DNA from: a virus
DNA length: 64,000 bases
Direction: 5' to 3' (one strand)
Virus record (IMG/VR): IMGVR_UViG_3300012017_000779
Location: 1 to 64,000 of that record
Shown: positions 5,130 through 64,000 of the stretch, one piece after another
How positions within the stretch are numbered: position 1 is the first letter of the stretch
Layout of the letters: every line of letters begins with the position of its first letter
The notes under the pieces: generated by a model
Database searches by the model: none
Told to the model about the DNA's origin: nothing
Seen by the model: the letters and a program-made list of their open reading frames with translations, nothing else
Made by a program: the position numbers and the translations under genes

Positions 5130-5534
5130 ATGATTTTAAACAAACAAGAAATTAAAAACATATTGAATATGTTACTTTCTGAAGATAAAGAAAATGCTAT
5201 AATTGCTTTTTCTTGTCTTAATAATTATGCTAGTAAAAAATATTTAGGTGAATTATTAGTATTATATCAATTTGGTAAAACATCAACTGAAGAATGGGAA
5301 AAAGAATGTAAAAAAGTTTTTAAACTTATAAAAAATGTTTTAAAACTTAATAGTACAAACTATAGATTTCCCTCTTCTACAGTATTTTCTGCTTTAATAG
5401 ATAATAAATGTAGTAAAGAATCAATAGAATTATATTTAGAATTATTTACTAATCAACTTTCTAATAATTTATATAATATGGGTTACCCTACAGATAAAAT
5501 AGAAATTAGTGTAAAAATAAAAGACAATGACTAG
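5130..5534 (+). CDS. Hypothetical helical protein
   Basis: 134 residues, Lys-, Asn- and Leu-rich, predicted largely helical (LNMLLSEDKENAIIAFSCL, YLELFTNQLSNNLYN). No motif or membrane segment. It ends with TAG inside the start of the following metallopeptidase/VWA gene (eight-base overlap), so the two are probably co-translated. Unknown function. Confidence 0.65.
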   Translation: MILNKQEIKNILNMLLSEDKENAIIAFSCLNNYASKKYLGELLVLYQFGKTSTEEWEKECKKVFKLIKNVLKLNSTNYRFPSSTVFSALIDNKCSKESIELYLELFTNQLSNNLYNMGYPTDKIEISVKIKDND

Positions 5535-20900: not shown

Positions 20901-23900
20901 ATCATTTGCAATGTTTCCAGACCTTCATATTGTTTTTCTAGTTCAATAAAATTTAAAAATAAAGCCAAAGATTTTAAAGATGCATCATTATTCATTGATT
21001 CTTTTAAATCAGATATGTTAATATCATCTTTAAATAATTCTTTAGATAAAACTTCTGATAAATAAACATAGTTGTTACTAAAATCATAAGTTTTAGTTTT
21101 ATTATCAAGAATTTTATTTTCAAGACTTTTTACTATATCATATACAACTTCATTATTATTACTTTTAATGCTGATAATATTTAATGGATTAATTTTTTTA
21201 TTATTTAATCCTTTTATTAATTCATTTAAAGTATAATAAAATGATTGTTTTTTATTATCTTTTATTAAATATTCATCATCAGCAGGATATATTTTTTCTA
21301 AAGACTTTATTGTAGTTCTTAATTTTAATAATGTAACACTATTAATAACTCTTTGTAATTCATCTGGTGCTAAAGTATTTAAAATTTTATTGCTTATTTC
21401 TGATGCAATATTATATTTATTACTTTTTTCAAATTGAGCATCTGTAGAAATTAATGGATTTAAAGAACTATTTTCTAATCTTTGTTTAAAAAAGTATTCT
21501 CTAATTAAAGGTTGAGTTACAAAATAAAAAACTTCTTCTTCATCTACACCTGCTTGCATTAAATAACTTATTACACCTATTCCTTCAGGAGTTAGTTGTA
21601 AAACAAAAGGGAAAGAATTTTTTGCTCTATCTAAAATACCGTTAAGCATGTGTGAATTAAGATCTGTAATTCTATTTCCTTTTTGAGACTTATTACCTGA
21701 TATAGAAATTACTTCATCACCATTTTTTGATTTTATAATGTTGTGTTTAAATCTTATAATAAAAGGAATGTCAATTAAACCATCTTCAAATTCACGTAAA
21801 TTTTTATTAAAAACAGAGTTTTTATATGACTTTGGCATCTTAGCACCCAACATTTTAAAGAGCACATGATTCTTTGTATTTTTAGCTTGTATTCCTAATG
21901 AAGGTTCTAAAGATAAATTAGCAGCAAACTTGTATAAATTATAGATATAATCATAATTTCTTGAAGGACTTATAATTTCTTTTTTTCCATCTGCACTTTT
22001 ATTTTTTTCACCAACTTTACTATCAGTATGAGAAACATTATCTAATCTATTATACTCATTTACAATATTATTTTCTAAAGATTTACTATATTTTTCTACT
22101 AAATATGTTAAATTAGGTTTTGTAAGTATTGCAAAGTTTTCAGGAAGAGTTAAAATATCTAAACTTATTTTAATGTATTGATTTTGTAAATACTTTTCTT
22201 GCTGTTTAATTAATTTATTAGATGTTAATGCACCTAATTCAAGTGTACCAGTAAACTCTTTATCTTTTGTTTCTTTTAATATTTTATTAAAGTTTTTTAT
22301 TGGAGTATTTATATAATTACCTTCTATATCAATATTAGGCATACTCATAAATAATTTATCACCATCATAATCAGAACCTGATTTAGCAACTATTTCTGTT
22401 GGAACAATAATAGCATTACCATAACTTTCATCTAGAAAATGCCATACCTCAGCTCCTTCAATTGTACTTAATGCATCATTAGGAATCCTTGGACCATATA
22501 AAGATATTGAAAGTCTATTTTTTTCTAACCAAGCATCATCTTTAATTAATTCATTTAATCTTGTTATAGTACCAATTTTATTACCTTGTAAGTCATTTCC
22601 ATTTAAAAGATTAATAAAGTCTCCTTGCAATGCAATAGCTACTTTCATTAAACCTGTTCTACCATTTTTATTTCGTATGTAAGAAGGCAGTGTATTTGTA
22701 CCTAATACTTTTTTAATTTCAGAAACTTTAGTAATTGTTTTATATTGAGTATTCCAAAGTCCATTTGTAAATGTAGAAGCAGCTTGAGTTAAAGGTTCAC
22801 CATTAATTGTTTGTTTAATTAATCTTGATTGAACAATACTCATTATAAGTTTTTCAATTGTTTGAGCTTCAGGATGTATAGAAAAATCCATAGATGCAGC
22901 ATTACCTTTTTTAGTTGCATTTAATAATCTAATTAAATGGTCAGGCACATCTCTTTCATCTAAGTTATCTCTGATAATTTTTATAAACTTTGAAAAATCA
23001 CCATTGCTTACATATTTTCCATCTTTTTCAGTAAAACCAATTTCATTAAGTAATTTTAATTTAAGTAATGCACTATAGTCATTTACTATTTTACTATAAC
23101 TATCTAATGTTTTTTTATTTTTTGGATTAATTAACTCTCCATTATCATATAATGTGTCTGTTAATATTACTCTTGTTTGTGTAGCAATTGGAAGACTTCC
23201 TTTAAAGGTGTCATTAATGACTGTAACTTCTTTTAAGTTAGCAAGGTATACTGGATTAATAGTAAATGTAAAATCATCACTGATGCCAGTATTTTCAGTT
23301 TTATCTTCAAAAATATCATCAGTTTCTTTATTACTAGTAAGTTCAGAACCTTTTGAACCTGATTTAAAAGTTACATACTGAACATTATCTTTTAACATTT
23401 TAAGATGCAACTTATATAGTTCAGATCCTTCTTTTGCATTCACTCCTGGTATTAAAGGACTAACAGCAAATTTATGCATAGCAATTGCTGGCAAATACTT
23501 ATTTTTTATAGCACCAAATAAATGTAACTTATATATAGGAAAAAATTGTTTAACTGTATTTGGATCAATAGTTTCTCCTTTAACAATTTTTTGATATAAA
23601 CTTTCTTGCTCCATTGACCAGCCTCTTCCACTTACTTTATGTAATATTCTATAGGCATCAATAGTCATAAAAGCCATACCATCACTTTCAACTATTTTTT
23701 CATAAGCTTCTCTATCTTCTTTGATTCTTTCTTCAGTCTCTGCTTCACTAAAAGTTTTTAAATAATCTTCTCTCCAAGCTTCAACTAAATCATCTATATA
23801 AATAGATTCTCTTGTAGCATCTTTAATAACTCCTGTATTTATTACTTCACTAAATACATATTTATTATAATCTATATTATCTTTACTTAAGCTTTTGTTA

Positions 23901-26900
23901 AGTTCAGAAGCATAAGTAGCATTTGTTTCTGTAGGTTTGTTAAATGTGTTATTAATAAAATTAATAGTTCCTTCATCAAATAAAAATCTAATACCATCAG
24001 AAGTACCACCTGGTATTCTTTTAGTCCAATCTTCTTTTGAATGATCCCATTGAGCTATATCTCCAAATAATAAAGTTGAGGTTTCAAATTTATATATCCA
24101 ATCATTATATAAAAAAGCTTTTAATAATACATCAGATAATTCTTCATTTTCATTAAGCATATTTAAGTCAGCTTGATTATTGACCTCCATACCAAGTTTT
24201 TTATATATACCTTTTGAGAATATATTTTTTTCTTTAATAGGATTATAATAATATTTTTTAAGCTCACTTACTTTATCATTAAAATATTTTTTAATTTCAT
24301 TTTGAATATTATTTTTTAAATCTGCATTATCTTTTTGTTTTAAAAGTTCAAGTAATGTTGATATTGTATCTTCTTTAACAGCTAACTTATATAATTCATT
24401 TTTAGTTTTATCAGATAATAAATTATCAAATGCTGAAAATACTTCACCTGCATAAACATCTTTTCCTTTTACTTTTTTTACTACTTGATTAAATCCACTT
24501 ATTTTTAATAATTCATCTCTATCAGGACCTTTGAATTTTTTTATTCTATCAAATTCACTTTCTATATATTTTAATAGATAACCTTCAATAGCATATGTTT
24601 CACCAGTATTTTCTTGAAAAGTAAACATTATTGGATCAACAAAAATATTATCATCAGTTCCTTTTGTTCCATCTGCAAGAGTTGGTTTAAGTAAACCTCC
24701 TTTCACTGTTAAACCAAAAGACATCTTCTTATCTGCTGTTCTTCCTAACTCAGCTTTACCATTAAGAAGCATCATATTAATATCCTGTATAAATTTACTA
24801 AAAGGGTCTAATTTAGTAGTTATTGTTCCTGAACCATCCATTTCAGAAGTACCATCTATTACAATTAAATTTAAATTTTTGCCTTTAATTTTAACTTTAT
24901 CAATACCAAATAAACTCTGAAACATTACAAGATTCTTAGTAAAAGCATTTATTTTTGGATCTAAAAAATTCATGTGATTAAGAATAGGATTTTTACCATT
25001 CCATAATTCATCTTGTTTAGATACAGAATTTATTGCATATAAGTTATTTGTAACTGAACTTGCATTCATTGTTTCATATGCAACATTACCATCAGCTCTA
25101 ATTACAGCATTAGTTGAACTATCAAATCCATATTGAGATTGAAGTTTTGCTAAATTTTTTATTTGTGTATTTTGTTTAATAACATTTACTTTATCTATCT
25201 CTGGTAAAATATTTTTAGGAATTTCTTCTTTTAATATTTTTATTGGATTTTCTTTAAAGTCTTTTATATATTTTTTTTGTAAAGCTGTTTTTTGTGGAAG
25301 TTTATCAACATTATTAAAGGCATTTAAAATTCTAAATATATATTTTAATCCATAAGGTGTAGAATTATTTTTTAATTCATCTTTAATATTATTATTATTG
25401 GCTAATCCTATTCCTATGGCATTTGCAAATTCTAATTGTTTATTAATATCAAGTTCATTTTCTTTTGTTTGTTTAAATTCACTAACAACTTTATCTAAAT
25501 TTAAATTAGGGACATTAGCTACAACATCTATAAACTCATTATAAATACTTAAACTATTAAATTCAGATATCCATTTCTCAATAATAGAAGAAGTTTCCAT
25601 AGAAAGTTCAATTACTTGAAAGTTTACAGTTTCATCACGGGATGCAACTAATTGTACATATTTAACATTAGGTTTTCCAAAATCATTAAAAAATGATACA
25701 CTTAAGTCATACTCAAAAGTATTTGTAGTGTTAGGTTCAGGATATTTTTCTTCAAAGAATTGTTTTAATTCTGGATATTTTTTATATTCTTTTTCTAATT
25801 TTTTATATGCTTCATCTCTATCTGATATATTACCAATTATTGCATATAACATATTAAATATATCTGAAAAATCAGCTCTTTCTTTAAATCCAAATCTATC
25901 AACAGGTGTGCTAATATCTCCATTTTTGTTTCTAACAACTTTAAATAAAGATTTTATTACATATATAGTTTCTTTAGATAACATGTCCTGAAGTGATATT
26001 TTTCCAGGTACAGCATCTATTGTTAATTCATCAACTCCTTCTTCTTGTTCTGTTTCTTCTTTTGCATCTACTGCAATATCATATACTTTTTTTGAAGTTT
26101 TAAAATCACTATTTTCTGAATGATATTTAATTACACCTGACCCTTTACTTCCCCAGTTATCAAGTGTTGTTTGTAGTATTCTTATATTATCAAGTATAAC
26201 AGATTGTTCCGGACTTAAAACAGTTTCTGATATAGAATCAGTAATTAATTCTGTATAATTTTCAGTTACACCTTCTATTTTATTAAATTTTTCTTGTTCT
26301 TTCTTAAGTTTATCTTCTAGAATTTTTTTAGTTTCTCTATACAAATATTCTTTTTGTTCAATACCTTTTAAAAATAAAACATTAGCTGCTTTTAAATTTT
26401 GTTTTCCAGCTGCTTTTCTTTTATTATATATGTCACTTAATAGTTCAGCCCATATATTATCTATTGTCATGGTTACTTCTAAAGAATCTTGATTACTTAA
26501 TATATCTATAGAAGGATTATTAACTTTTCTAATTCCACGGTCAAGTTCATATAAAATAGCATTTTCTATTAAAGGTTTATAACTATTAATCTCTCCTATA
26601 TATAACTTATTAAATAAGTCTTTTGCCATAGGAGAATTCATGCTATCAACAAGTATATCTTTTTTAGAAAAAACATTTAGTTTACCAAATAATGCTTTTA
26701 AAAAATTAAGCATTTTTCTAAACAAAGTATTTTTAACTGGTGTCTCAGGACTTGGCTTTTGATTTTTAGCATAGTTTCTAAAATCTTCAGCTAACATTTC
26801 TTCTAACTCTAAATAAGATTTATTTATATTTGGTTTATTCCCTTTTGAATCAGTATAATTTCTTAATTCAGTATATAATTTAATTTTATCTTGAGGAGTC

Positions 26901-29386
26901 AAAAACAATTGTGAAAATATATGCCATGCTTCATGATACAAAGTAAGATTTTGGAATATATCTCCTTGTTTTCTATTTACTGCTATAGTTGCTAAACTTC
27001 CATCTGGATTAGCTATTTTACTTGCATTAACTATAAATGTTGCATAAACATCTGAATTAACTAAGTTAAACACTTGTTTAAAAGAAATTACTTTTCTTAA
27101 TGGTTCAAGTGCTTTACTATTCCACCAAGTATTGATATCTTCAAGTTGTTCTTGAGTTATTTTTTCTTTTTTAAATCCTTTTCTATCAAGACCTTTAAAT
27201 ATATCATCATTTATATCAATACCGGTATCAGTATCATTTGGATTAGCTGCTCCTGGAACAATAGTATTTTGAATAACATCTGTTTCTGATTTTATTTCTT
27301 TAACTTCTTTAGTCTCAACTTTTTCTTTAGGTAAAGCTAAAAATTGACTTCTAAAAAATTCTCTTTGTTTATTAGTAATAGCTGAAGGTTGTCCATTATA
27401 ACTTGACATGTCTGTCCACTCATTTATAATTTTTGTAAATTGTTCTTGAGTATCAAATTCTCCTTTATCAAGAGCTGTTTTAATAACATTAAACAATACA
27501 AAACTTAAATTTTCATTAAAAGAAAATCCTTGACTATTAGTAGTAAAACCATCTGCAATTTTTTTTCTAGCTTTTTCTAAAAAATAATCATAAGATAATT
27601 CAGATTCAACTTCATCAGATTCTATACTTTCTTTTATATTATCAAAAGATACATCTTCTGCTGAAAAATTTACTACAAAATTAAAAACATCATTAGATAT
27701 GTTTTTAAAATCTATATTAGGATTTAAACTAATAATTAAATCTAAATAATCAGCTTGAACAATTTCTTTTGTTTCTGTATTATAATCATTATAAACATGA
27801 TTTCCTTTAATAAATTCATTATTATAAAAAAGATATGGAGGATTATTAAAGAAAATATTTTTAATTTTAGTTTCATAATCTTCAATACTATCATCAGATA
27901 TATTAGATACATTTAATTCTTCAATAATTTCTTTAGAATCTTTGTCAATTATTTTAAATATTAAATTAGAACCTTCTTCTTTAATTAAAAAGTTTCTATT
28001 ACCTTTAGAATCTAAGAATAAAAACTGCTTTACAAAATTTAATTTTACTTTATTTTTTAAATTTTTATTAGTTAAAACTTTAGCAATTTTTATTGCAAGT
28101 TGATCTGACATTTTCATTCTGTCAATTTCAACTTTTTCATTTTTAAAAGATATAGTTGCTTTTTTAGATGAAGCATCAATAGTTTTTAAACTCTCTTTAT
28201 TAAACAGTGTACTATCTATTAATTCTTTTAACTTATATGTATCACTAATTTTATTTTCTGTAATACCAGTTGATATATTTGTTATTGGTAATAATAAGTC
28301 TTCTGTATTTTTTTTATTTTTAATTTTATTTTGTAGAGCTAACAGTTGTTCTGATTCTTTTTTTAAAGTCTCTTTAATTTCTTTAAGAAATAAAGCCTGG
28401 TCTTCAGCTGTAGAACCATTTATTTCTGGATCATAAGTATTTTTGTATATAGTTTCTGCAGATTGTATAGTTATAGCTTTACCATAAAAATCTTTTACAA
28501 CTATTTTATTATTTTCAACAGAAGCATTTCTCATAAACTGATAAACAATTTTACCAGTTTCAGCTAAATTACCATCTTTGTCAAAATATAAAAACTTACC
28601 GTTTGTATCAGTGATTACTAAGATTATTTTTTCATCTGCCTGAATTACATTTTTTTGATTTTTTCCTTGTGATGATAAATGTCTAGAATCTTTAACTTCA
28701 GTTATAGTAGTTGGATCAAGTAAACTTTCATTCTTAGTAAAAAAATCATTTAAAATAAATGGTTTAAACATTAATTTTTTACCCTGATACATAACAGTAT
28801 ATACATCCTCTTCCATATTTTGAGAAGCTGATATGTTTTCAAGTGCTTTTACTATATGTGCTCTACCGGGATCATCTTCTTCTATGATTAACTTCTTATT
28901 AGGATCTTTAGATTTTAATGTTTGTAATGTTCCACTCAATGGAGAAGCAGTTAATAATCTTTTTGATTTACTAAAAGGTTTTGGTGGTTCATTTTCATCA
29001 TCTTCTTCTTCTTCAATTTCATTTGATTTTATTCTATCTATAATATCTTTTAAGTTTATTTTTTTATCTGATAAAGTATCAATTATTATATTGATTGCAT
29101 TATCTGACATATACTGCACATTTAATTTTCTTAAAGATGTTAAATCAACATCAATATTCATAAAAGATAAATTTGTATTTGCTACATCAATAATTAATCT
29201 TGGTACAGACTGTAAATATTTAGCTGCTACTTCAGGTGACGTAGCTTCAGCAAACTTTTTATATAAACTTTTTAAATAATTTTCATACTTAAAAACACCT
29301 TCTTTAGAAGATATTTTAAATTGAGCTGTTATGTGTGAATATAATAAACTAACAATTTCAGGATTATTAATTGAACAAGTAATCAT
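17921..29386 (-). CDS. Giant multidomain virion RNA polymerase (metalloprotease motif - RNAP - SLOG)
   Basis: 3821 residues. H818-E-A-W-H822 in LYHEAWHIFSQLF is a zincin metalloprotease motif. The RNA polymerase core centres on D2339-Y-D2341-G-D2343 (KSGSDYDGDKLF), preceded by SLYGPRIPNDAL and GNAIIVPTEIVAK. This matches the double-psi-beta-barrel catalytic loop of YonO/crAss-like single-chain RNA polymerases, such as phage phi14:2 gp66, which travel in the virion and transcribe early genes. Upstream segments (LPAIAMHKFAVSPLIPGVNA) belong to the same region. Residues about 3360-3520 are a SLOG (Rossmann-like nucleotide-binding) domain beginning YAGIGSRETP, followed to about 3690 by a DUF4326-like domain (PWASFNR, YYAELGEPSHATALDYLI). 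Similar 35-residue segments flank this pair. Such fusions fit the polyvalent-protein concept. The stop is TAG; the start overlaps the upstream stop (TAATG). Confidence 0.85.
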   Translation of the reverse strand: MITCSINNPEIVSLLYSHITAQFKISSKEGVFKYENYLKSLYKKFAEATSPEVAAKYLQSVPRLIIDVANTNLSFMNIDVDLTSLRKLNVQYMSDNAINIIIDTLSDKKINLKDIIDRIKSNEIEEEEDDENEPPKPFSKSKRLLTASPLSGTLQTLKSKDPNKKLIIEEDDPGRAHIVKALENISASQNMEEDVYTVMYQGKKLMFKPFILNDFFTKNESLLDPTTITEVKDSRHLSSQGKNQKNVIQADEKIILVITDTNGKFLYFDKDGNLAETGKIVYQFMRNASVENNKIVVKDFYGKAITIQSAETIYKNTYDPEINGSTAEDQALFLKEIKETLKKESEQLLALQNKIKNKKNTEDLLLPITNISTGITENKISDTYKLKELIDSTLFNKESLKTIDASSKKATISFKNEKVEIDRMKMSDQLAIKIAKVLTNKNLKNKVKLNFVKQFLFLDSKGNRNFLIKEEGSNLIFKIIDKDSKEIIEELNVSNISDDSIEDYETKIKNIFFNNPPYLFYNNEFIKGNHVYNDYNTETKEIVQADYLDLIISLNPNIDFKNISNDVFNFVVNFSAEDVSFDNIKESIESDEVESELSYDYFLEKARKKIADGFTTNSQGFSFNENLSFVLFNVIKTALDKGEFDTQEQFTKIINEWTDMSSYNGQPSAITNKQREFFRSQFLALPKEKVETKEVKEIKSETDVIQNTIVPGAANPNDTDTGIDINDDIFKGLDRKGFKKEKITQEQLEDINTWWNSKALEPLRKVISFKQVFNLVNSDVYATFIVNASKIANPDGSLATIAVNRKQGDIFQNLTLYHEAWHIFSQLFLTPQDKIKLYTELRNYTDSKGNKPNINKSYLELEEMLAEDFRNYAKNQKPSPETPVKNTLFRKMLNFLKALFGKLNVFSKKDILVDSMNSPMAKDLFNKLYIGEINSYKPLIENAILYELDRGIRKVNNPSIDILSNQDSLEVTMTIDNIWAELLSDIYNKRKAAGKQNLKAANVLFLKGIEQKEYLYRETKKILEDKLKKEQEKFNKIEGVTENYTELITDSISETVLSPEQSVILDNIRILQTTLDNWGSKGSGVIKYHSENSDFKTSKKVYDIAVDAKEETEQEEGVDELTIDAVPGKISLQDMLSKETIYVIKSLFKVVRNKNGDISTPVDRFGFKERADFSDIFNMLYAIIGNISDRDEAYKKLEKEYKKYPELKQFFEEKYPEPNTTNTFEYDLSVSFFNDFGKPNVKYVQLVASRDETVNFQVIELSMETSSIIEKWISEFNSLSIYNEFIDVVANVPNLNLDKVVSEFKQTKENELDINKQLEFANAIGIGLANNNNIKDELKNNSTPYGLKYIFRILNAFNNVDKLPQKTALQKKYIKDFKENPIKILKEEIPKNILPEIDKVNVIKQNTQIKNLAKLQSQYGFDSSTNAVIRADGNVAYETMNASSVTNNLYAINSVSKQDELWNGKNPILNHMNFLDPKINAFTKNLVMFQSLFGIDKVKIKGKNLNLIVIDGTSEMDGSGTITTKLDPFSKFIQDINMMLLNGKAELGRTADKKMSFGLTVKGGLLKPTLADGTKGTDDNIFVDPIMFTFQENTGETYAIEGYLLKYIESEFDRIKKFKGPDRDELLKISGFNQVVKKVKGKDVYAGEVFSAFDNLLSDKTKNELYKLAVKEDTISTLLELLKQKDNADLKNNIQNEIKKYFNDKVSELKKYYYNPIKEKNIFSKGIYKKLGMEVNNQADLNMLNENEELSDVLLKAFLYNDWIYKFETSTLLFGDIAQWDHSKEDWTKRIPGGTSDGIRFLFDEGTINFINNTFNKPTETNATYASELNKSLSKDNIDYNKYVFSEVINTGVIKDATRESIYIDDLVEAWREDYLKTFSEAETEERIKEDREAYEKIVESDGMAFMTIDAYRILHKVSGRGWSMEQESLYQKIVKGETIDPNTVKQFFPIYKLHLFGAIKNKYLPAIAMHKFAVSPLIPGVNAKEGSELYKLHLKMLKDNVQYVTFKSGSKGSELTSNKETDDIFEDKTENTGISDDFTFTINPVYLANLKEVTVINDTFKGSLPIATQTRVILTDTLYDNGELINPKNKKTLDSYSKIVNDYSALLKLKLLNEIGFTEKDGKYVSNGDFSKFIKIIRDNLDERDVPDHLIRLLNATKKGNAASMDFSIHPEAQTIEKLIMSIVQSRLIKQTINGEPLTQAASTFTNGLWNTQYKTITKVSEIKKVLGTNTLPSYIRNKNGRTGLMKVAIALQGDFINLLNGNDLQGNKIGTITRLNELIKDDAWLEKNRLSISLYGPRIPNDALSTIEGAEVWHFLDESYGNAIIVPTEIVAKSGSDYDGDKLFMSMPNIDIEGNYINTPIKNFNKILKETKDKEFTGTLELGALTSNKLIKQQEKYLQNQYIKISLDILTLPENFAILTKPNLTYLVEKYSKSLENNIVNEYNRLDNVSHTDSKVGEKNKSADGKKEIISPSRNYDYIYNLYKFAANLSLEPSLGIQAKNTKNHVLFKMLGAKMPKSYKNSVFNKNLREFEDGLIDIPFIIRFKHNIIKSKNGDEVISISGNKSQKGNRITDLNSHMLNGILDRAKNSFPFVLQLTPEGIGVISYLMQAGVDEEEVFYFVTQPLIREYFFKQRLENSSLNPLISTDAQFEKSNKYNIASEISNKILNTLAPDELQRVINSVTLLKLRTTIKSLEKIYPADDEYLIKDNKKQSFYYTLNELIKGLNNKKINPLNIISIKSNNNEVVYDIVKSLENKILDNKTKTYDFSNNYVYLSEVLSKELFKDDINISDLKESMNNDASLKSLALFLNFIELEKQYEGLETLQMIYAPDTSKLTTLQQVIKRIELFDKLKRNSKIDQEFLTALMKDSLLSSFNQDALMIDLIKPLFKLRLDKNISSFISEKLLKERARITRKFGKGVKGEEYFTSSYNNAVVDYIYQNYMSNFTDPVNGKHITIPKALSSKNVIIDNTIQQDVIVGKNIIVNEEKLKSDFDNKIFLNDDALDVFEKNKNPFQTFSSYVRYVMEREVLRDSLIDTEVTEEYLSEVALLKSFNSPYIMGKTKYSYSESIMNIINNFDDTKVNFPVLNHIVLKSNKRNINKVLSLNNKSLLTKEISSIYNKNLKDLADPTINKDKKSLEFFKPFSLILFYQHGFGNSKLSINRVLDAKKFTDEMIDASTFFINDLESKDFSFVTLNNIFSKVIDVKNRQFIEYTENADQYNNPVKKDIDDGIEIEFDLENEENIIKTKIISDDDIAAYNTYLEKSNGVKPKEFFTPSTFFKEFYNSQTGKNEKAPHSTSWILQKNNLYNLVDKDGGEIVIENVDLKTGYKITTGQPTQPPVSGDRPVFDSLPSKSTTPTMTYAGIGSRETPQEVLDVMPEVAKYLESLGYTLRSGGAAGADAAFEKGVTSLKEIFIGSVKTGEKELKIAEEIHPAWNVMLDSTRKKAITKGNDPERSAAFVANLMARNTNQIFGKNLDTPVDFVIFYAKETADPLRPKGGTGQAVEMARRKGIPTINMADTNWRAQLKTALATQSSTSVNSNDIYSQLENKNVVISNIKTKDGKYDRDANIKEAKANNRVYTMEVVSDVNSFSNPWASFNRTGTIKTNTTKEAVINYIDWLTTDKFKDVKPKRKAFILDVLKSGKLKGRQLQYYAELGEPSHATALDYLINKYDWSQPSTSAPIKKELEGLNEAREVYESLFIATGKPPITFTVGVSTWKLNKNFNYDLIDQDTGEVQLKNVNMVTGIMEEDIVESIPLTAKQKNDFIKDFEQKVIAYNLDELLSLFNINIQDVYKKINNATTKEDLIEIETEINNKLCQ

Positions 29387-46133: not shown

Positions 46134-46148
46134 AAACTTAATAAGTTT
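46134..46148. terminator. AT-rich palindrome between late units
   Basis: AAACTT-AAT-AAGTTT overlaps the stop of the 1727-codon gene by two bases and lies upstream of the promoter-like element, the same order as at 39430-39444. Weak as a terminator; may be an operator. Confidence 0.35.
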
Positions 46149-49100
46149 AATTAATACCTTTTGCTTTCATATAATTTAAAATACGTTTGTATTGATTATA
46201 AGTAATATCAGGTTTTGTTTCAAGACCTTTTTCATTAGCATGTTTTTTTATATAGGCATTTCTAATTTGCTCATGTGTAATAATACTTTTTAAATTTAAA
46301 TTATATTTTTTTGCAATTGGAGCATAATACTCTACAAATGAAATAACTTGTTGATCAGTTAATGGTTTTTTTTGTGTATCTCCTTGAAATTCTACACCAA
46401 TACTAAAATCATTAACATCTTCTCTTCCATTCCATTTTGATTTTCCTGCATGAAAAGAAACTTGTTCAGGAGATGCATATATAGTTCTAGAACCATCTTC
46501 TTCAATAACTACGTGAGAAGAATTTTGTCCAGGTGTCATAAATTGTTTTTTTACTTCAGCATTATTAGTAATAGGATCATTATAAGCAGTATGATGTAAT
46601 ACAAAGTTTTTAATTTCATTTTTTAATTTATGACCAGCTTTATAACTGTCATCTTTTTTTGTTCTTACATTAGGCATATCATATACATACGTTTCTTTAA
46701 ATTTGTTAACAGGAACATTATATTTTTTTATATATAAACCATTACCTCCAGAAGTATTTTCAGCATCATAATTAACCAACCTTTGTTTAGTTAACTTACC
46801 ATCTTTATAAGAAAGACCTCTTGCATATGTTCCATTATCAAGACTCCATGCTTCAAGATATTTACTGTTTCCTTTTAATCTTTTAAATTCTTTTTTAATA
46901 TGAGAAACACTTCCTGATACCAATGTTTGTTCTTTTGTTGTAGGATTAACAAAAACAACTCTACCTCCTAAAATAGAACCATAATAATCTTCTTCTGCTT
47001 TACCTTTTTTTGTTAAAATATTTAAAGCACCTTTTTTAAGTTTATTATTTTCTAATATTGTTATTTGAGGTTGCCAAAATTTTGGATTTCCAGATCTTGC
47101 TCCATCTAAAGATATGTCATCAATAGAAACAATTTTATTCATAAATGTTTTAGAAAATTTCCAATCTTTATTATTTTTTAAATTTTTATAAATACCAGTA
47201 TGTAATACTCCTTTGTTATCTAAAGCAAATACACTATTATCATCATTTATACCATTTACATTTGTTTTTTTATTATAAGGTTTTATATTAGCTGCCTTAC
47301 TAAATGGATGAAATGTTGTAAATTCTAATCCATCAGATTCTATATCTTGATATTGACCTCTATTTCTACTACCTAAAACTAAGTTAGATGTTGGAACAGT
47401 TTGTTGTTTAAACTGTCTATTTGGTTGATCATTTACATTTAATATAGTTTGTGATAAAGTTGGATTTTTATAATAATCTTTTACATTTATAGGTTCAGGT
47501 GATTCTATAACTTTTTTATCTTTAGTTTCTACTATACCCCAAGTTTGAAGTTTACGGTCTAAACCATTATTAAAAAGTTTTTTTTGATTATCCAACCAGT
47601 TATCAAAACTTTTTATTTCTTTATAAGTTGATTCAAAAAATGAATCTTCTGGTTTAACAATTTTATTTTTTATATTAGAATTATTATTTTTAGTTATTTG
47701 TAAACTATTTTTAATAGGTTCAACTTTACTTATATTTTTTTCTTTTAAAATATTTTCTTTTGCAATGTTTTGCAATTTATTTTTTAAATCTAATTCAAAA
47801 TTAGATTTAGTTTCAATAGTAGGTATTTTTCTAATAGTTTTTTTTATAGGTTCAGTTGTTTGTTTATATTTTTTTATATTTTTATCATCAACTTTTTCAT
47901 AAGCTATATCATCAATATCTTCCATACCAAAAAATCTTTTAAATCTTTCTGTATATGTAGGATCTCTTGTATAATCATAAGATTTACCTTTTTTATTAAA
48001 ACCACCATTTTGATAATTATCTATTTCCTCTACTATATAACCACCTTCTTTATATCTTTGTACTTCTTCTGGTGTTAGATCTAATTCTACATAATCATTA
48101 TTTTCTCCACCTTGTTTATATTGCCCTCTAAAACCTGTATTATAATCTTTTTTTAATTTTTCTAAATAGTTTTTATATTCTATTTGTTTGTTTCTATCTA
48201 AATTTTTATAATCCATAAATGGATAAGTTTCATCAACATCAAACATTTTTTGACCTTTTTTTCCTACTACAGTATTTCTATCTAATAATATTGGTAAATC
48301 ATAAGAATTATTAGGCATAAATTGAGAATTCCAATAACCATTATTAACTGCTAATTTATTCAATTTTCTACTTTTTAAATTATGATATTTATTAAACCAA
48401 TCTTGATAATTACCTGTACTATAATCTCTTGGTGAATGCAATTTAAACATATACTTTCCATAACCAGATGGTACGTCTGAAGTATATAAAGCATCTGCAT
48501 AACTCATATCTGGCATACCTGATCTATAACCATATTGTTGCATAGGTACATGAGTAGCTTGATATTTAGCAATTGAAATAGGATCATCAAAATTTACTCC
48601 TGCATTTTTCATATTTTCAAATTCAGATATTTTATTATTCCATGAAGGTTTTGACATATCATAAGGTCTATTAGTATAGTCCATAACTCCTTTACCATCT
48701 CTAGGTACTGAACCATCAACACCTCTAAATTTAGTTGCTTCTCTATTTAAAGCTAGTTTAGTTAACTTATTTGTTCTATCTGTACTTCTAGCTGCATAAT
48801 TTAAATCTTGAAAATCTTTACCTATAAGCTCTTCTTTTTGTAAGTTTTTAATAAATTGTCTTCTTGGTAAAAAACCAGAAATTTCTTTTAAATTTTTAGA
48901 AGAAAAATCATATTTAGAAAGGTCTATTTTAGGAGAACCTGATAATTGTTTAGGAACTCCTTTAAATCCTTTTATTAAATTTTTAGATGCATTATAAGCA
49001 GGTTTAAAAACTTGTTTACCTAAACCTAATCCTAAAAAACCTAGTGCATTAACTCCTGTTTCAAAAGAAGCATCTCCTAAAGTATTCCATGAAGGATTAT

Positions 49101-51330
49101 TAATAAAATTACTTTGAGATTTTACAACATCACTTTTTGAATCTCCTTGATTATAAAGAGCATCAGCTCCAAAATATGCTGCTACAGAATTACCAAGATT
49201 TAATTTACCTCCTGTTGCATCTGTAATTTTTTTACCTAATGGTAAAGGTGCTTTTACAGATGTTTTTGTTGCAGTCCATAAAGGTTTTAACCATTTTCCT
49301 GCTTGTAAAACCATTTTTGGTGCACCTCCTATTCCTGTCATTGGAGAATCTTCAAAAGGAGATCTACCTTTAGGTTGTGGTTTATAATTACTTTCTGGAG
49401 CATCTGTAAATAGTCTATTTAAAATATTAGAATGTTCCCAGTCATCTTGTCTTTTATTAAATTGACCTACTGTTTCTTTAATACCTTCATTATTAGCAAG
49501 ACCTTTCTTTATTTTACTATCTTCTTTTTCTTTTTGAATTGCTTTTTCTTTTTCTTCTGAACTTTTTTTAACAAAAGCTTGTATATTATTTTTATATTTA
49601 GGATCAAAAGACCAGTCTAAAGGTTTTTGATAAATATTATTTACTCTTGTATTATCAGAAGAATTAGATGAAACTTTAGACATACTATCATCAACAGGTT
49701 TAGCCATCTTATCTAAAACTGCTGTCCTAGCTTTAACATCTCCTTTATTTAAAGGTTGATATTTACCAGACCTATTCCAATCTACTTGCCACTTACCATT
49801 AACTTTTTTGTAATTACCCTTACTTCCTTTTACAGTGTATATACCACCATCTTGGTAATTATCTATTTCTTCTACTACATAACCACCTCTTCTATATTCT
49901 TCTATCTCATCTTCATCAAGATCAGCTTCTATAAATCCTGGAGAAACATCTTTATAATTTTCTGCAAAATAATTAGCATCTTCATTTGAATCAAATCTTA
50001 TAGCTTCATTAGATTCCGGACCATAGTCTCCAAGTTGTAGTACACCATTCTCATCTTGTATTTGTGGTACTGCATAATTATCCATGCTTGCCATGTAATG
50101 AGAACCAGTATCTCCATTATCAAATTGATAAGGATTGTCTGGTAGGTTAATCATTCTTTCAGCAGCAGGGTTACCAAACTCATTAGCATATGCTAGTCTA
50201 GCTTTCATCATACCAGTCATTGCATCTTTGTTACCACCATCTTGTTTTTTAGGAAACATAGATTTACCATCTTTTTCAAATTGTTCTTCACGGACTCTTG
50301 CTTCTCCTTCTTCTGTAGTTGGATCTTGATACATTAAAGCATTTGCACCTGGAAAACCTTCTGTAAATTCTTGTAATTTATTTCTTGGTATAAATTGTAA
50401 ATTAGGATCAGCTTTGATCATTGCATCTGTTTGTGCTTCTAATTCAGTATTTCTTCTGTCATAGTAATTACTTATTGCTTGATCTGATGCTACAGTATTA
50501 TTAGGTCTTTGACCTAAAAAACCAGCAGTACTTGCACCACCTCCTAAGTTTTGCAAATGGTGATACTTTTCATGTTCTGTCCACCAACCATTATTTTCTA
50601 TTGATCCAGGTCTTGTATCTTGACTTATTTCACCTGTTGCTGCATTATATCCTGTATTCTCATCAGTTTCAATTACTTCTGGTTCTTGCCATTCTACACA
50701 TTGACCATTATAAATAATATATCCTTCTGGACATTTTGATTCTCCACCATCTTGTGCATGTACTAATCCTTGACCACCACACTCATGACATGTAGTAATA
50801 TCTTTACCACCATCTTCAGCATCCCATTTCCAGCCACATTTTTTACATGTTACTTTTTTAGTAAGTAAAGCACCACCTTCTGCATAATACTTTGAGTTAG
50901 GATCAAATACTTTATTCTTTCTAGACTTAGGTTTTGCAAATAAAAAATTTTGTGTAAATAATTTATTAGTTGCACTAAGACTTCTTGAGTAACCTTTAGA
51001 ATTTTTTTTATTAGGCATTTTTAAAACAGAACCACCTTTACGCATAAAATCTTCAGGTTGTTCTAACTCAGGTTGCATTCTATAGTTAGTAGTAATTTCT
51101 TCTCCGGGTTTTAAATTTTTAGAAGCATAGATAAATCTTTTATTATCTATTTTTTTACTATAAGCTGTAGGATTTTTTTCATTATGATTATGATTTCTTC
51201 CAATTTCAGATGCGGGTTGATCATCAACATGAGCTAATCCAATTACCTCACCTTTTTTAAAAGGTGCTTTAGTAAATAAACCTTTACCAGCTCCTTTTAT
51301 ACTAGATTGTTTTGTTATATATTTTTTCAT
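46147..51330 (-). CDS. Multidomain tail lysin: SET - zinc ribbon - HExxH - amidase (1727 residues)
   Basis: Residues 1-85 form a SET domain: KGAGKGLFT (12-20), GRNHNHNEKNP (44-54) as the NH-containing substrate/cofactor motif, and LKPGEEITTNY (73-83). A zinc ribbon follows: C162-x2-C165, C181-x2-C184. WWTEHEKYHHLQ contains H253-E-K-Y-H257, a zincin-type site. Two copies of a 40-residue GG module occur at about 462-500 and 1076-1113. The C-terminal 160 residues are an Amidase_2/PGRP-type N-acetylmuramoyl-L-alanine amidase: NFVLHHTAYND (H1579, H1580), GVEFQGD and IITHEQIR. The amidase would cut peptidoglycan during DNA entry or at lysis. It is the last gene of the tail unit, overlapping the 1845-codon gene by one base. 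The SET domain's substrate is unknown. Confidence 0.82.
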   Translation of the reverse strand: MKKYITKQSSIKGAGKGLFTKAPFKKGEVIGLAHVDDQPASEIGRNHNHNEKNPTAYSKKIDNKRFIYASKNLKPGEEITTNYRMQPELEQPEDFMRKGGSVLKMPNKKNSKGYSRSLSATNKLFTQNFLFAKPKSRKNKVFDPNSKYYAEGGALLTKKVTCKKCGWKWDAEDGGKDITTCHECGGQGLVHAQDGGESKCPEGYIIYNGQCVEWQEPEVIETDENTGYNAATGEISQDTRPGSIENNGWWTEHEKYHHLQNLGGGASTAGFLGQRPNNTVASDQAISNYYDRRNTELEAQTDAMIKADPNLQFIPRNKLQEFTEGFPGANALMYQDPTTEEGEARVREEQFEKDGKSMFPKKQDGGNKDAMTGMMKARLAYANEFGNPAAERMINLPDNPYQFDNGDTGSHYMASMDNYAVPQIQDENGVLQLGDYGPESNEAIRFDSNEDANYFAENYKDVSPGFIEADLDEDEIEEYRRGGYVVEEIDNYQDGGIYTVKGSKGNYKKVNGKWQVDWNRSGKYQPLNKGDVKARTAVLDKMAKPVDDSMSKVSSNSSDNTRVNNIYQKPLDWSFDPKYKNNIQAFVKKSSEEKEKAIQKEKEDSKIKKGLANNEGIKETVGQFNKRQDDWEHSNILNRLFTDAPESNYKPQPKGRSPFEDSPMTGIGGAPKMVLQAGKWLKPLWTATKTSVKAPLPLGKKITDATGGKLNLGNSVAAYFGADALYNQGDSKSDVVKSQSNFINNPSWNTLGDASFETGVNALGFLGLGLGKQVFKPAYNASKNLIKGFKGVPKQLSGSPKIDLSKYDFSSKNLKEISGFLPRRQFIKNLQKEELIGKDFQDLNYAARSTDRTNKLTKLALNREATKFRGVDGSVPRDGKGVMDYTNRPYDMSKPSWNNKISEFENMKNAGVNFDDPISIAKYQATHVPMQQYGYRSGMPDMSYADALYTSDVPSGYGKYMFKLHSPRDYSTGNYQDWFNKYHNLKSRKLNKLAVNNGYWNSQFMPNNSYDLPILLDRNTVVGKKGQKMFDVDETYPFMDYKNLDRNKQIEYKNYLEKLKKDYNTGFRGQYKQGGENNDYVELDLTPEEVQRYKEGGYIVEEIDNYQNGGFNKKGKSYDYTRDPTYTERFKRFFGMEDIDDIAYEKVDDKNIKKYKQTTEPIKKTIRKIPTIETKSNFELDLKNKLQNIAKENILKEKNISKVEPIKNSLQITKNNNSNIKNKIVKPEDSFFESTYKEIKSFDNWLDNQKKLFNNGLDRKLQTWGIVETKDKKVIESPEPINVKDYYKNPTLSQTILNVNDQPNRQFKQQTVPTSNLVLGSRNRGQYQDIESDGLEFTTFHPFSKAANIKPYNKKTNVNGINDDNSVFALDNKGVLHTGIYKNLKNNKDWKFSKTFMNKIVSIDDISLDGARSGNPKFWQPQITILENNKLKKGALNILTKKGKAEEDYYGSILGGRVVFVNPTTKEQTLVSGSVSHIKKEFKRLKGNSKYLEAWSLDNGTYARGLSYKDGKLTKQRLVNYDAENTSGGNGLYIKKYNVPVNKFKETYVYDMPNVRTKKDDSYKAGHKLKNEIKNFVLHHTAYNDPITNNAEVKKQFMTPGQNSSHVVIEEDGSRTIYASPEQVSFHAGKSKWNGREDVNDFSIGVEFQGDTQKKPLTDQQVISFVEYYAPIAKKYNLNLKSIITHEQIRNAYIKKHANEKGLETKPDITYNQYKRILNYMKAKGIN
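48001..48053 (-). repeat. 53-bp coding repeat, copy 2 (GG module of the 1727-residue protein)
   Basis: Matches 49843-49895 at 46 of 53 bases and encodes YKEGGYIVEEIDNYQNGG, within the second GG module. Confidence 0.8.
49843..49895 (-). repeat. 53-bp coding repeat, copy 1 (GG module of the 1727-residue protein)
   Basis: Encodes YRRGGYVVEEIDNYQDGG; partner of 48001-48053, 1842 bases away in the same reading frame. A related segment (MSEDQIRAFMAEGGQVEFL) closes the 1322-residue protein. Confidence 0.8.
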
Positions 51331-59304: not shown

Positions 59305-60960
59305 TTATCCTACTCTTCTAATAGCCCACTCTATATTATCACCAAGAGTACGTTGTTCAGTATAAGCCACACCTGTTAAATTTTGTATTTTTAATACTAT
59401 TTGAGTTCCTACAGATATAGGTACACCTTGCATACCACCTGTCATATAAATTTTATCATAATAAAATTCTTTTACAGCAGTAAAAGTATCAGCACAATAA
59501 ATAATTGCTGCACCTGTTATATCTGTTATACCAATAGTAAAAGTTCCTCCTACTTGACCCCACCCATATGTATTTGCAGGTGAACTTAAATATACATTAT
59601 AATTAAGATCATATTTGCCTGTTTGAGGACATGTCCAAACTCCAGTAATTTGATTATATTGTGAAGTAACATTTACTCCATTTTCTATTTCATATTGTAT
59701 AACACCATTAGTAGTATCAAATACTACAGTAGTACCTAAAGAAATATTTGAATTAGGTTTATTAAAAGTTAAACTAGGAAAACTATCAGGGCTAATATAA
59801 CCTCTAAAAGCTGTACCAAATAAACCTGCAGTAGTTTGAATAACATTTCCAAGTGCATCTGTAGATAAACTCCATGCAGCAGTACCTATAAAATTATTAG
59901 GAGTACCATAATTATTTAATTGTAATTGTCCAGTACTTTTTAAAGTTAGTTGATCTTGAAGTGTATTATTAGCAGATACTTTACTTTGAATAATAAATTT
60001 AGATGAAGTAGCAGTTACATTTGTATTAACAACTGTTTTAGATACTAATCTATTTGTTACAACAGGTTCTGTTAATGAAGATGGATTTCCAAATTCAATA
60101 GACACCCCAGATCCTGCTGTAGTATTACCTTTATTTTCAACACGTATTGCACATGCATTAGCATTTCCTGCTGAAGTAATAGATGTAGGTTGAATTAATA
60201 ATGTTGGAATAGTTGTTGCTGGAATACTTGAATTTTCTACATTAGAATTTGATATTAATCCTAAAGCTTGAGTTCCTGATCCTGCAGTATTAGTAGATGT
60301 AATTTGTACAACAGGTGTATTTAAACCAGAAACATTAGACTTTGCTAATATAGCTTGAGAATTTGTTACTGTATTATTAACTACTAATGTTGCACCAACA
60401 GAACCAGATTTATCTAATGTTAATGTAGGTACTGCACTACTATTTATCTTTAAAGCAAATCCATTATTAGTAATAGTTGTATCTTGAACTAAAGGACCTC
60501 CAAGTTGAATATTATTTACAGTTTTTGTTAATCCATTGTTTGCTGTTACTGGTGTTAAACTTACAATTGCATCACAAAAATATAATACTATTTGTTGTAA
60601 AGCTGAATTAACACCAGAACCAGCTGTTACGACTACATCTTCACTACATAATATTTCTGGCACATCACTATATGTAGTACAAAAATATTCAACTAAATCT
60701 TCTAATAAGTCTGTCCATGTAGAATCTGATGTTATAACAACATCTCCATTACACTCAATGTCTGGACCATTGTATATAATACAATCTGAACTTAATACTT
60801 CTTGACAAGGTATAGGATCCGGACATCCTGCAGGAGTTGGACATGGAGGAGGACTAGTTAAAAAACTATCCTTACATCCACATTTTGCACATTTGTTATT
60901 ACAACTACTGTAGTTATGATTACAACTTGTACAAGTACTATTAGTGTTATTACAGCTCAT
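59305..60960 (-). CDS. Fibre-like protein with Cys-rich N terminus and C1q/TNF-like head
   Basis: 551 residues. The first 60 residues contain 11 cysteines, several in CxxC pairs (C10/C13, C24/C27). The segment SSDCIIYNGPDIECNGD closely parallels SSNCVIWQGPDLHI in the next gene and looks like a shared virion-attachment module. The middle is Asn/Thr/Val-rich beta-repeat (NNTVTNSQAILAKSNVSG). The last 170 residues (YISPDSFPSLTFNK; WTCPQTGKYDLNYNVYLSS; GTQIVLKIQNLTG) fit a C1q/TNF-type jelly roll, a common trimeric receptor-binding head. It probably binds host-surface glycans or capsule. It lies 12 bases after the 852-codon gene and before a strong terminator. Confidence 0.72.
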   Translation of the reverse strand: MSCNNTNSTCTSCNHNYSSCNNKCAKCGCKDSFLTSPPPCPTPAGCPDPIPCQEVLSSDCIIYNGPDIECNGDVVITSDSTWTDLLEDLVEYFCTTYSDVPEILCSEDVVVTAGSGVNSALQQIVLYFCDAIVSLTPVTANNGLTKTVNNIQLGGPLVQDTTITNNGFALKINSSAVPTLTLDKSGSVGATLVVNNTVTNSQAILAKSNVSGLNTPVVQITSTNTAGSGTQALGLISNSNVENSSIPATTIPTLLIQPTSITSAGNANACAIRVENKGNTTAGSGVSIEFGNPSSLTEPVVTNRLVSKTVVNTNVTATSSKFIIQSKVSANNTLQDQLTLKSTGQLQLNNYGTPNNFIGTAAWSLSTDALGNVIQTTAGLFGTAFRGYISPDSFPSLTFNKPNSNISLGTTVVFDTTNGVIQYEIENGVNVTSQYNQITGVWTCPQTGKYDLNYNVYLSSPANTYGWGQVGGTFTIGITDITGAAIIYCADTFTAVKEFYYDKIYMTGGMQGVPISVGTQIVLKIQNLTGVAYTEQRTLGDNIEWAIRRVG

Positions 60961-60972
60961 TATATTTTATTT

Positions 60973-63531
60973 TTATAAATCTCTAAGTTTTACAATACCA
61001 ACTCTTATAGCATCTGCACTATTATAACCTCCACCAGCATAATTTGTTCCTGACAAATTTAATACTCTAAAAATTACTTCATCTCCAACATCTAATAGTA
61101 CTGTACATTGTGCATTAAGTATTATATTACTATCCATACTTGCAACAATACTTTTTGAACTACCTGTAAATATATTTCTTGAATTAGTACCTCCACTACA
61201 TATACCTATATCAAAACGTCCATCTGTTCCAGATGTTTTCCAATAAGTATTACTATTGTCATCTGCTTTTAAATAACAAGACATAGTTAATAAGTATTCT
61301 CCTTTTTTAGTTATTTCAAATATTCCAGTAGTATTATCAACAGTTACAAATGTAGAAGTTGGAACAGTTGATGCTGGAGTTGAATTACCAACATACTCAG
61401 TTCCTCCTCCATAAGTAGCACTATTAATATTTACAACAGTTCCATTTGAATCCATATAAGTATAATTTAATACATCTTGAACTCTATTTGATACTGAATA
61501 ATTATTTCCCCCAAAAGCTACTGTTTTACCGGGAGCATTTGCTACAGTATTTATTGTAGCTGTTGCAGTATTAGAACTATAAGCACCTCCAATAGTAACC
61601 TGTGCATTATAATAATCTAATCCTTTACTGTTAACAGCATAAGTAGTAGTAGTTCCTACAGTATTAGATGTAACATTTATATTTGTTCCACCCTCAACTA
61701 CTGATAAACTTCCTGGAGGAACTTCTACAGAAAGACATCCTTCAGAAGTTACACTTAAGTCTAAAGAACAAGATGTTATTTGTCTTAATACTAAAGACTG
61801 TGTAATAGGATCCCATGACTCAATTAAAGATTCTGAACTACAATTGGCTGAACCTCCACTTAATACAGAATTTAAATCATTTTCAAATTCTACAGTTGTA
61901 AATGTAAGCAATCCTGTTCCAGAATCTACTGCTTTATTAAGTATTGATCCCCATCCATAATTCCATAAACCTTGATTTGCAGCTATATAGGGATTAGATC
62001 CAGCTCCAGTAGGTGTTACACTTCCAAAAATTGGAATAGTATAATTTGCTCCAAATGCTCCACTTAAACCACCTAATGTAATATCTGTATTATTTGTAGC
62101 TGCATAAGCATGAAGTAAAAAATTTTGTTCAAGAACAGTACCATTATATGCTGGATATACAACAGCATTAAAACTAGTCCAATATGTAGTATAATCTGTT
62201 ACAAATGTATTGTAGTTACTAGTATATGTAGAAGTTGGTTGAGCAGGACTAAATAAAGAAGCAGGAGAAGCAGCACCATGATAGTCAGCTTCAGATTCAT
62301 TTACAAATGCTACAAATAATATTGCAGTAGGTCCAGCCCATCCAGGTCCATAACTTGGAGGAACTACAGCTCCTATTGTAGTACCATCTAAAGGATTTAA
62401 CCAAGTAAAAGCTGCAGCTGAAGTACCTGTTTTAATTATATTAGGGTGGTTTAAATAATTTTCAGTATACGATTCATAAATATAAATTTGACCAGTATAA
62501 CTTGGATTTGCTGCAGTATAATTTACCCACCACTGATAAAGTGCTGAACATACTATTTGTTTATTTTGTGCAGCAGTTGGACCAGATCCACTATATGGGC
62601 CAGAAGTAGTATCTATATAACCATAAACATCAGCATCATTTGAAATACCAAGTGCACAATCAGTTTCAGTAATTGTTAAACCAATTTGATTATCTAAATA
62701 ATTATAAATATCACAAAGTACTACCCAAACATTACTTAAAGAAGCTGCAAGATTATTTTCTGTAGTTTGCCAATATGAATTCCAATTTGGATTTGCAGAA
62801 TATGTAGTACCTGTAGATAATTGTATATCTGTATTTAAAATACATTGTGATAATACAGCATCAATTAAAGATGCTGGTAATGCAGTTGCATCTAATAAAG
62901 CACAATATCCATAATCATCATCATTAATAAGAATACTTAATAATTGATCCATAGGAACTGCTGGAGAACCCGTGCCTCCAATTTGCGGACTATTTTGTAA
63001 TATACAATCACTAGCAACAGTTGGTAAAGTAAATGTTGGTGGAGGAGTATTTTCTAATATTGTAACTCTTATATCTAATTCATTAAGTGTATTATTAATT
63101 ATAGCAATTTGATCTAAAATATTACAAATTTTTAATCCTATTGCTGTTACATAATCTATTAATGTCATTACAGTAACTCCATTAACTATAAAACAAGGTG
63201 CTACAGTTATTAATACATCATCAGATTTACCAGTTGTATCTGCACCTGTTAAAGACAATCCTTGTAATAAACAAATCTGTTCTATTAAAAATTGTAACAG
63301 TTCTTGATAAGTTTCTGGTTTACAACCAACTAAATTAAAACAAGAAAGATCATAATTTGTAATAGATAACTGATCCATTACTGTTGCTAATTCAGTTGCA
63401 AGACTTGCTATAACATCTGAAATAGTATCTCCTGTACATAATTTAATAATATGTAAATCAGGTCCTTGCCAAATAACACAGTTAGATGATATTGGACTAC
63501 ATGGTGAGTTATCGTAATTTAATGGTTTCAT
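60973..63531 (-). CDS. Fibre-like protein with C1q/TNF-like C-terminal domain (852 residues)
   Basis: N terminus NSPCSPISSNCVIWQGPDL matches the attachment module of the 551-residue protein; a second related segment (VASDCILQNSPQIGG) occurs near residue 175. Residues about 310-550 form an Ala/Tyr/Ser/Thr-rich domain (YLNHPNIIKTGTSAAAFTWL, ADYHGAASPASLF). The C-terminal 190 residues (GIFEITKKGEYLLTMSCYLK; GDEVIFRVLNLSGTNYAGGG) fit a C1q-like jelly roll. Likely a tail or head fibre for receptor binding. A promoter-like element precedes it. Confidence 0.7.
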   Translation of the reverse strand: MKPLNYDNSPCSPISSNCVIWQGPDLHIIKLCTGDTISDVIASLATELATVMDQLSITNYDLSCFNLVGCKPETYQELLQFLIEQICLLQGLSLTGADTTGKSDDVLITVAPCFIVNGVTVMTLIDYVTAIGLKICNILDQIAIINNTLNELDIRVTILENTPPPTFTLPTVASDCILQNSPQIGGTGSPAVPMDQLLSILINDDDYGYCALLDATALPASLIDAVLSQCILNTDIQLSTGTTYSANPNWNSYWQTTENNLAASLSNVWVVLCDIYNYLDNQIGLTITETDCALGISNDADVYGYIDTTSGPYSGSGPTAAQNKQIVCSALYQWWVNYTAANPSYTGQIYIYESYTENYLNHPNIIKTGTSAAAFTWLNPLDGTTIGAVVPPSYGPGWAGPTAILFVAFVNESEADYHGAASPASLFSPAQPTSTYTSNYNTFVTDYTTYWTSFNAVVYPAYNGTVLEQNFLLHAYAATNNTDITLGGLSGAFGANYTIPIFGSVTPTGAGSNPYIAANQGLWNYGWGSILNKAVDSGTGLLTFTTVEFENDLNSVLSGGSANCSSESLIESWDPITQSLVLRQITSCSLDLSVTSEGCLSVEVPPGSLSVVEGGTNINVTSNTVGTTTTYAVNSKGLDYYNAQVTIGGAYSSNTATATINTVANAPGKTVAFGGNNYSVSNRVQDVLNYTYMDSNGTVVNINSATYGGGTEYVGNSTPASTVPTSTFVTVDNTTGIFEITKKGEYLLTMSCYLKADDNSNTYWKTSGTDGRFDIGICSGGTNSRNIFTGSSKSIVASMDSNIILNAQCTVLLDVGDEVIFRVLNLSGTNYAGGGYNSADAIRVGIVKLRDL

Positions 63532-63590: not shown

Positions 63591-64000
63591 TTAACAAGGA
63601 TTAGATAATATAGTAGAAGATAAACCTACTTGCCAAAATTGTCTTTCATCACATATAATATTTTTATTAGAACTTCCACCTACTGTTGTTACATAATCAA
63701 TAGATGCAGGATCTACAAAATTTTTATTTGTTCCATCCCATTCTTCTATACCTATTTCTGATGCAACATTATCAATTCTATTTGCATAACCAGTTTTTGC
63801 ACCAGTGTTCGAAGCAAAAACTAATCCTATAATTTTTCTAACTCCTCCAAAATCAGCAATTAATGCTGAACCTGAATCACCACCTATAATAGGATTAGCA
63901 CATAAAACACTTAAACTAGGATCATTTTCAGGTTTAACAAATTCAAGTTGATCTTGAAAATTTACATTAGTGAATGTACCTTGTTTTCTATATTGTATTG
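63591..64000 (-). CDS. Trypsin-like serine protease, C-terminal part (cut by window edge)
   Basis: The minus frame is open from the window edge to a TAA at 63591-63593; 136 residues are visible. CANPIIGGDSGSALIADFGG carries the serine-nucleophile motif GDSGS, with the Ser codon at 63873-63875. It is followed by KIIGLVFASNTGAKTGYANR and IDNVASEIGIEEW, the strand, oxyanion-pocket and C-terminal helix order of chymotrypsin-fold proteases. The His and Asp of the triad would be upstream, outside the window. The C terminus is Cys-containing (NIICDERQFWQVGL, ending SNPC). It precedes the fibre genes, so it may be a virion or maturation protease, or may act on host-surface or fibre proteins. Confidence 0.75.
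   Translation of the reverse strand, partial: IQYRKQGTFTNVNFQDQLEFVKPENDPSLSVLCANPIIGGDSGSALIADFGGVRKIIGLVFASNTGAKTGYANRIDNVASEIGIEEWDGTNKNFVDPASIDYVTTVGGSSNKNIICDERQFWQVGLSSTILSNPC

Follow-up and report, generated by a model that had tools for sequence, protein, structure and literature searches.

A predicted NAL1-type serine protease among the fiber genes of a crAss-like phage, and a C-terminal tag on its upstream partners

Phage enzymes that cut host polysaccharides and peptidoglycan are well known, depolymerase tailspikes being those that cut polysaccharide. Among chymotrypsin-fold proteases, streptogrisins and alpha-lytic protease (peptidase family S1) are secreted zymogens with other pro-regions, and DegS/HtrA offer a precedent for reading the C-terminal peptide of a partner (the YxF of outer-membrane proteins), which HtrA does through a PDZ domain. 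Matched pairs of sorting tag and protease also exist in bacteria. In plant NARROW LEAF 1 (NAL1; PDB 7y77 and 8pmg; Pfam PF25608 and PF25819), an N-terminal domain precedes the double barrel, and plant NAL1 homologues have been reported to degrade TOPLESS-like corepressors (PMC12915138). The proteases of PHROG 20754, Alphaspiravirus and the jumbo-phage record LR756508 belong to other virus groups and are stand-alone. We found no report of a trypsin-fold protease as part of a crAss-like virion in a literature search confined largely to freely accessible papers, and the main texts of a gut crAss-like survey and of the crAss001 structure paper make no mention of proteases. The enzyme described here is a variant of the NAL1-like S1-fold protease; its new element is a portable C-terminal tag on unrelated fiber partners.

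The protease gene and its predicted fold

The window, i.e. the whole stretch of DNA that was analyzed, comprises bases 1-64000 of a source record of 82,178 bases. At its right edge, a minus-strand frame (63591-63998) is open up to the last bases and contains CANPIIGGDSGSALIADFGGVRKIIGLVFAS and GYANRIDNVASEIGIEEWDG, from which the initial annotation had read a GDSG-type serine protease. That frame is real. With the next 18 kb added, it becomes a single unbroken ORF of 416 amino acids with an ATG start (contig 63591-64841, minus strand), the window holding the C-terminal third (63591..64000). The triad motifs follow in sequence order as TNNHV (His143, codon at contig 64413-64415, minus strand), NKVDC (Asp205, contig 64227-64229, minus strand) and GGDSGSAL (Ser323, window 63873..63875, minus strand, placed by alignments of 9 and 60 family members); the first two, which the initial annotation had proposed to look for, lie beyond the window in the same frame. 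IIGLVFAS and IDNV are present as it described, although IDNV is not terminal, since approximately 60 residues follow it, the last of which form a C-terminal segment specific to the phage proteins (residues 364-416, GIEEWDG...WQVGLSSTILSNPC; 63591..63752 with the stop codon, minus strand). The PHROG 20754 'protease' profile matches the 416-aa protein at E 6.2e-14 (residues 22-362 on profile positions 28-312 of 324) and full-length homologues exist, so that the protease reading is far from chance. Single-sequence searches with the window protease gave no significant match in Pfam, NCBIfam or the PDB. Its sequence has no signal-peptide-like stretch, as expected for a virion part assembled in the cytoplasm.

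Profile-guided scans of viral contigs identified relatives on at least 126 IMG/VR stretches, apparently forming an undescribed phage family. Across an alignment of 60 distinct sequences, His and Asp are invariant (60/60) and the GDSG(S/T) serine motif is present in every member, including two very divergent sequences whose insertions cause them to misalign at Ser. A pseudoenzyme reading was rejected, as the triad is kept throughout the family, and the window protein is very probably an active protease. The equivalent of Asp189 (Ser-6), which defines trypsin sensu stricto with its Arg/Lys specificity, is Pro in 55 of the 60 members, and no preference for Arg or Lys would be predicted; therefore 'trypsin-like', the term originally applied, describes the fold and not the specificity.

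AlphaFold was run on the homologue from contig L098, which is 65% identical to the window protein, with 43 sequences. The model (pLDDT 86.9, pTM 0.87) has a confident chymotrypsin double barrel, the fold that the initial annotation had put up for checking, together with an N-terminal domain. NAL1 ranked first for this model (Foldseek E 1e-17; VIA-align 2 Z 30.3 over 316 residues, ~17% identity), with the two-domain architecture of NAL1 recovered across model residues 1-376, and the 43-sequence profile reached NAL1 directly (E 5.6e-8), making it the best solved whole-chain match by structure and by profile alike. Streptogrisin and alpha-lytic protease came next, with a match confined to the catalytic domain (residues 105-372; Z ~19, the streptogrisin type scoring 19.9 over 189 residues). 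The encoded protein is accordingly predicted to be a serine endopeptidase of the chymotrypsin fold with a NAL1-type N-terminal domain. The bridge to NAL1 came only via the viral-contig relatives and a bacterial homologue: the Pfam models PF25608 and PF25819 gave no match above gathering score with the window protein, and NAL1_N was matched weakly by 4 of the 43 relatives.

The bacterial homologue, from Anaerolineaceae (L087:2935-3945, 336 aa), shares the N-terminal domain (NNVQTDELC vs GNVQTDELC) and the triad context with the window protein at <30% identity. It connects to plant NAL1 (E 7e-4) and to alpha-lytic protease, while its own matches to Pfam Nal1_C and NAL1_N are just under the cut-offs or weak. 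A free-standing NAL1-type N-terminal domain of 89 aa (L087:3949-4218) is encoded directly 3' of it. By tblastn, LR756508 was the sole match in named phages; its protease shares the triad and the N-terminal domain with the window protein at ~30% identity and itself matches an Alphaspiravirus putative serine protease. The closest predicted viral structure is the uncharacterized A0A7S9XDX3 of Virus NIOZ-UU157 (TM 0.93 and 43% identity to the L098 model), which belongs to this phage protease family and already has a UniProt entry without a function.

Unlike NAL1, the phage members add a C-terminal Cys segment, extra cysteines and often adhesin-like domains. The segment (364-416) is missing from the bacterial and jumbo-phage relatives and was found in no other protein in which it was sought. 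Cysteines at six positions (84, 88, 269, 314, 397 and 416), which those same relatives lack, are frequent in phage members, Cys397 and Cys416 co-occurring in 45 sequences with one exception; such residues would suit a virion protein that is exposed. Approximately one third of the distinct members do not stop at the conserved WQVG...C segment and run on for ~160-850 residues of Thr/Ser-rich or Pro/Thr-rich linkers and adhesin-like modules, among them PKD plus DUF285 repeats (L006) and a PBP-like domain (L165).

Position among fiber genes and distribution

The portal (phrog_6547, E 3.5e-94) and the major capsid protein (phrog_11589, E 2e-31) mark the source as a crAss-like phage. The nearest portals in named records are those of Leptolyngbya phage Lbo-JY46 (33%), csAssE-Sib (28%), Cellulophaga phi17:2 (25%) and gut crAss phages (~22%), and we therefore assign it to an environmental crAss-like branch. 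Directly downstream of the protease gene lies a gene for an 852-aa fiber or virion structural protein (60973..63531, minus strand; PHROG 37948 virion structural protein, E 2.5e-18), homologues of which are the downstream neighbor in many related loci, followed by a 551-aa fiber gene (59305..60960, minus strand). The two C1q-ended fibers originally described are weak: the 551-aa C-terminus matches Pfam C1q below the cut-off (E 0.018), and that of the 852-aa protein resembles the 551-aa one (28% identity, E 6e-4). Upstream by 14 bp is a Cys-rich gene of 942 aa (contig 64856-67684, minus strand).

Gene order is constant among relatives with the same backbone, in which a gap of 4-90 bp separates the 942-aa Cys-rich gene from the 852-aa fiber gene downstream of it. 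The protease gene sits exactly between these two in the window, L006, L095 and L113. In L004 it comes after the Cys-rich gene, at the point where the contig ends. These positions bear out its original placement among fiber genes. Only L006 of the same-backbone contigs carries a protease gene anywhere; 24 of 25 are without one, some of them >100 kb in length. It is also absent from crAss001, phi17:2, csAssE-Sib and Leptolyngbya phage Lbo-JY46. The protease is an accessory gene and, as had been suspected, no standard part of crAss-like virions. Among 30 contigs with the protease, 20 also encode a crAss-like portal, the usual distance between the two being 12-20 kb. For the protease-partner pair on the L096/L097 contig and on L101 this distance rises to tens of kb, and L096/L097:4416-6984 encodes two tandem proteases, 47% and 62% identical to that of the window, behind one tagged partner.

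L006 and the window are 96% identical in a neighboring structural-module protein and only 57-59% in the protease, whereas for L098 the corresponding structural-module protein is 29% and the protease 63-65% identical. This mismatch indicates that the protease moves horizontally. A DUF285-type adhesin end also seems to be shuffled among three tail genes of the L006/L102/L086 contig and L010. It is carried by the protease in L006 and, by sequence resemblance only, by the 551-aa fiber homologue in L086 and apparently by the 942-aa homologue of the protease-less L010 (13900-17205).

The C-terminal tag of the upstream partner

The strongest clue to the role of the protease lies outside the region first annotated, at the C-terminus of the 942-aa partner, which reads NTIYTTFGTL (contig 64859-64888, minus strand). 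The partner gene is usually 1-26 bp from the protease gene, and partner bodies fall into 13 clusters that are otherwise unrelated between many phages, yet most end alike. The shared core is T-[IVL]-[YFW]-x-x-[FIV], with variants such as FNTIYTHFEAL, GVRTIFTKF, GVNTIFTYF and NTIYVHVP, and the tag often stands on a Thr- or Pro-rich tether at the partner's end. Of 54 upstream neighbors, 38 matched a regular expression for the tag within their final 28 residues, and ~47 of 52 are tagged if obvious variants are counted by eye (nine further). As a control, one chance match occurred among ~2,118 other ORFs, further copies of upstream genes having been set aside. The strict motif was found in 66 ORFs, all in protease-bearing loci, and the tag occurs once in the window genome (the window and the following ~18 kb). 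In a reverse scan of all viral contigs for two tag types, performed without regard to the protease, protease contigs accounted for 22 of 22 C-terminal tags of one type and for 7 of 11 of the other. Homologues of the 942-aa protein in protease-less relatives have Cys-rich ends with few exceptions, and never the tag.

The pairing has exceptions in both directions. Four contigs (L187-L189 and L191; two lineages, fragments of 4.7-26 kb) carry the tag without an adjacent protease, while L126, L127, L169 and L177 have the protease beside an untagged neighbor; in L006 the tag lies inside another fiber gene. The invariant Thr varies at the third base only and the aromatic position swaps among F, Y and W, which indicates selection on the tag peptide. 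A DNA element that would serve the protease gene as promoter or ribosome site was considered and disfavored, owing to this conservation at the amino-acid level and to the tags that have no adjacent protease. With partner-body distance corrected for, the divergence of the tags tracks that of the proteases (partial r 0.47, 0/2,000 permutations, a p value that is optimistic owing to sequence relatedness). The co-variation supports a tag-protease unit and would be compatible both with direct contact and with joint transfer. When the tag was read through into the protease in a single-chain AlphaFold model, it was left undocked (pLDDT ~30-47), the short 5-residue join hampering the test. In two highly diverged relatives of the protease (L178:6001-9120 and L181:5277-7904), a long insertion separates the Asp region from the Ser region; their upstream neighbors have another strand-like ending in common (SGNINII, SGRITII), which may represent a second type of tag.

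Possible roles of the protease and other genes of the window

The initial annotation had offered maturation of virion proteins, self-cleavage of a fiber or digestion of host-surface proteins as candidate functions. We hypothesize that the protease would be built into the virion by binding the C-terminal tag of its partner. On the particle, it would present its own C-terminal adhesin, as in about one third of members, or serve as a stand-alone catalytic subunit, and during adsorption it may cut a structure made of protein at the host cell or in its surroundings, the substrate being the least certain step. To this explanation as a whole, a virion-borne fiber protease held by a partner tag and cutting at the host surface, we assign a probability of about 0.45. 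The protease is probably a virion component, because its gene lies between those of the partner and the 852-aa structural protein and has a portal on most of its contigs, while the Thr/Ser-rich linkers and the PKD and DUF285 domains of its extensions point to attachment. It is equally probable that the tag physically meets the protease, and docking would be somewhat favored over cleavage; no PDZ domain was detected in the phage protease. That the target is a protein at the host cell or in its surroundings is a tentative suggestion. Just as tentatively, protease and tag may form a plug-in proteolytic fiber system, in which the protease, with or without an adhesin, is mounted on diverse fibers via the portable tag and both are swapped as a pair between unrelated phages. 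Unlike NAL1, the phage members are encoded in a fiber operon with a tagged partner, and the bacterial NAL1-like protease has no such partner. If so, this would be the proteolytic counterpart of polysaccharide-depolymerase tailspikes, and would extend the range of structures that phages cut at the cell surface to host or biofilm proteins. The tag would also provide a protein-protein rule open to testing, with one peptide and one protease for many unrelated fibers, and a marker for further fiber cargo in unannotated environmental phages.

A maturation protease, one that during assembly cuts either the partner's tag or the site joining it to its own adhesin, would leave the same picture: a single protease closely matched to a single linker-borne C-terminal peptide that co-varies with it, in a virion-structural gene context. 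The bacterial sorting-tag systems are comparable. We consider maturation unlikely, although it is the most serious competitor: the cut would free merely ~10-16 residues, an adhesin-fused protease must stay on the virion for its adhesin to be useful there, and the tag of L006 is internal to a fiber. It is improbable that the enzyme instead acts inside the infected cell, for example on a host regulator, and owes its place in the late operon to chance. A bacterial relative with neither signal peptide nor extracellular domains would suit this, as would the reported corepressor degradation by plant NAL1 homologues (PMC12915138), but the recurrent fiber-gene position, the fusions to PKD, DUF285 and Thr-rich modules, the phage-specific cysteines and the partner tag all speak against it. 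Somewhat less probable still is a functionless tag that travels because the recombination border of the cassette falls within the upstream gene, in its final 40 bp. This would explain why the same partner is tagged with the protease and untagged without it, and why the unit is transferred between backbones, but a passenger should decay, whereas the peptide is constrained at the protein level while the proteases diverge to ~40% identity, and it persists in another fiber (L006) and in the four contigs lacking an adjacent protease. Least probable is a fold that serves mainly as a fiber-adhesin joint with little or no catalysis, as the adhesin-like fusions and partner pairing might suggest, since a pure adaptor should have lost some of the His, Asp and GDSG Ser residues that every full-length member retains.

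Several other genes of the window were noted. A plus-strand gene block includes a glycoside hydrolase of family 16 (4250-4960; PF00722, E 1.1e-15) with no obvious signal peptide, possibly a beta-glucan or agar degrading enzyme. A DUF2201 metallopeptidase/VWA-like protein (5527-6714, plus strand) is encoded beside an ATPase-like ORF without a Pfam match (6725-7894). A 1,727-aa protein of the structural region (46147-51330, minus strand) carries an Amidase_2 domain at its C-terminus (E 1.6e-16) and, at its N-terminus, a SET-like match below the threshold (E 0.0066). A 3,821-aa ORF (17921-29386, minus strand) has no Pfam match at E 0.001; near its C-terminus, TYAGIGSRETPQEVLD...GGAAGADAAFE resembles, by eye, a SLOG/DprA-type nucleotide-binding fold.
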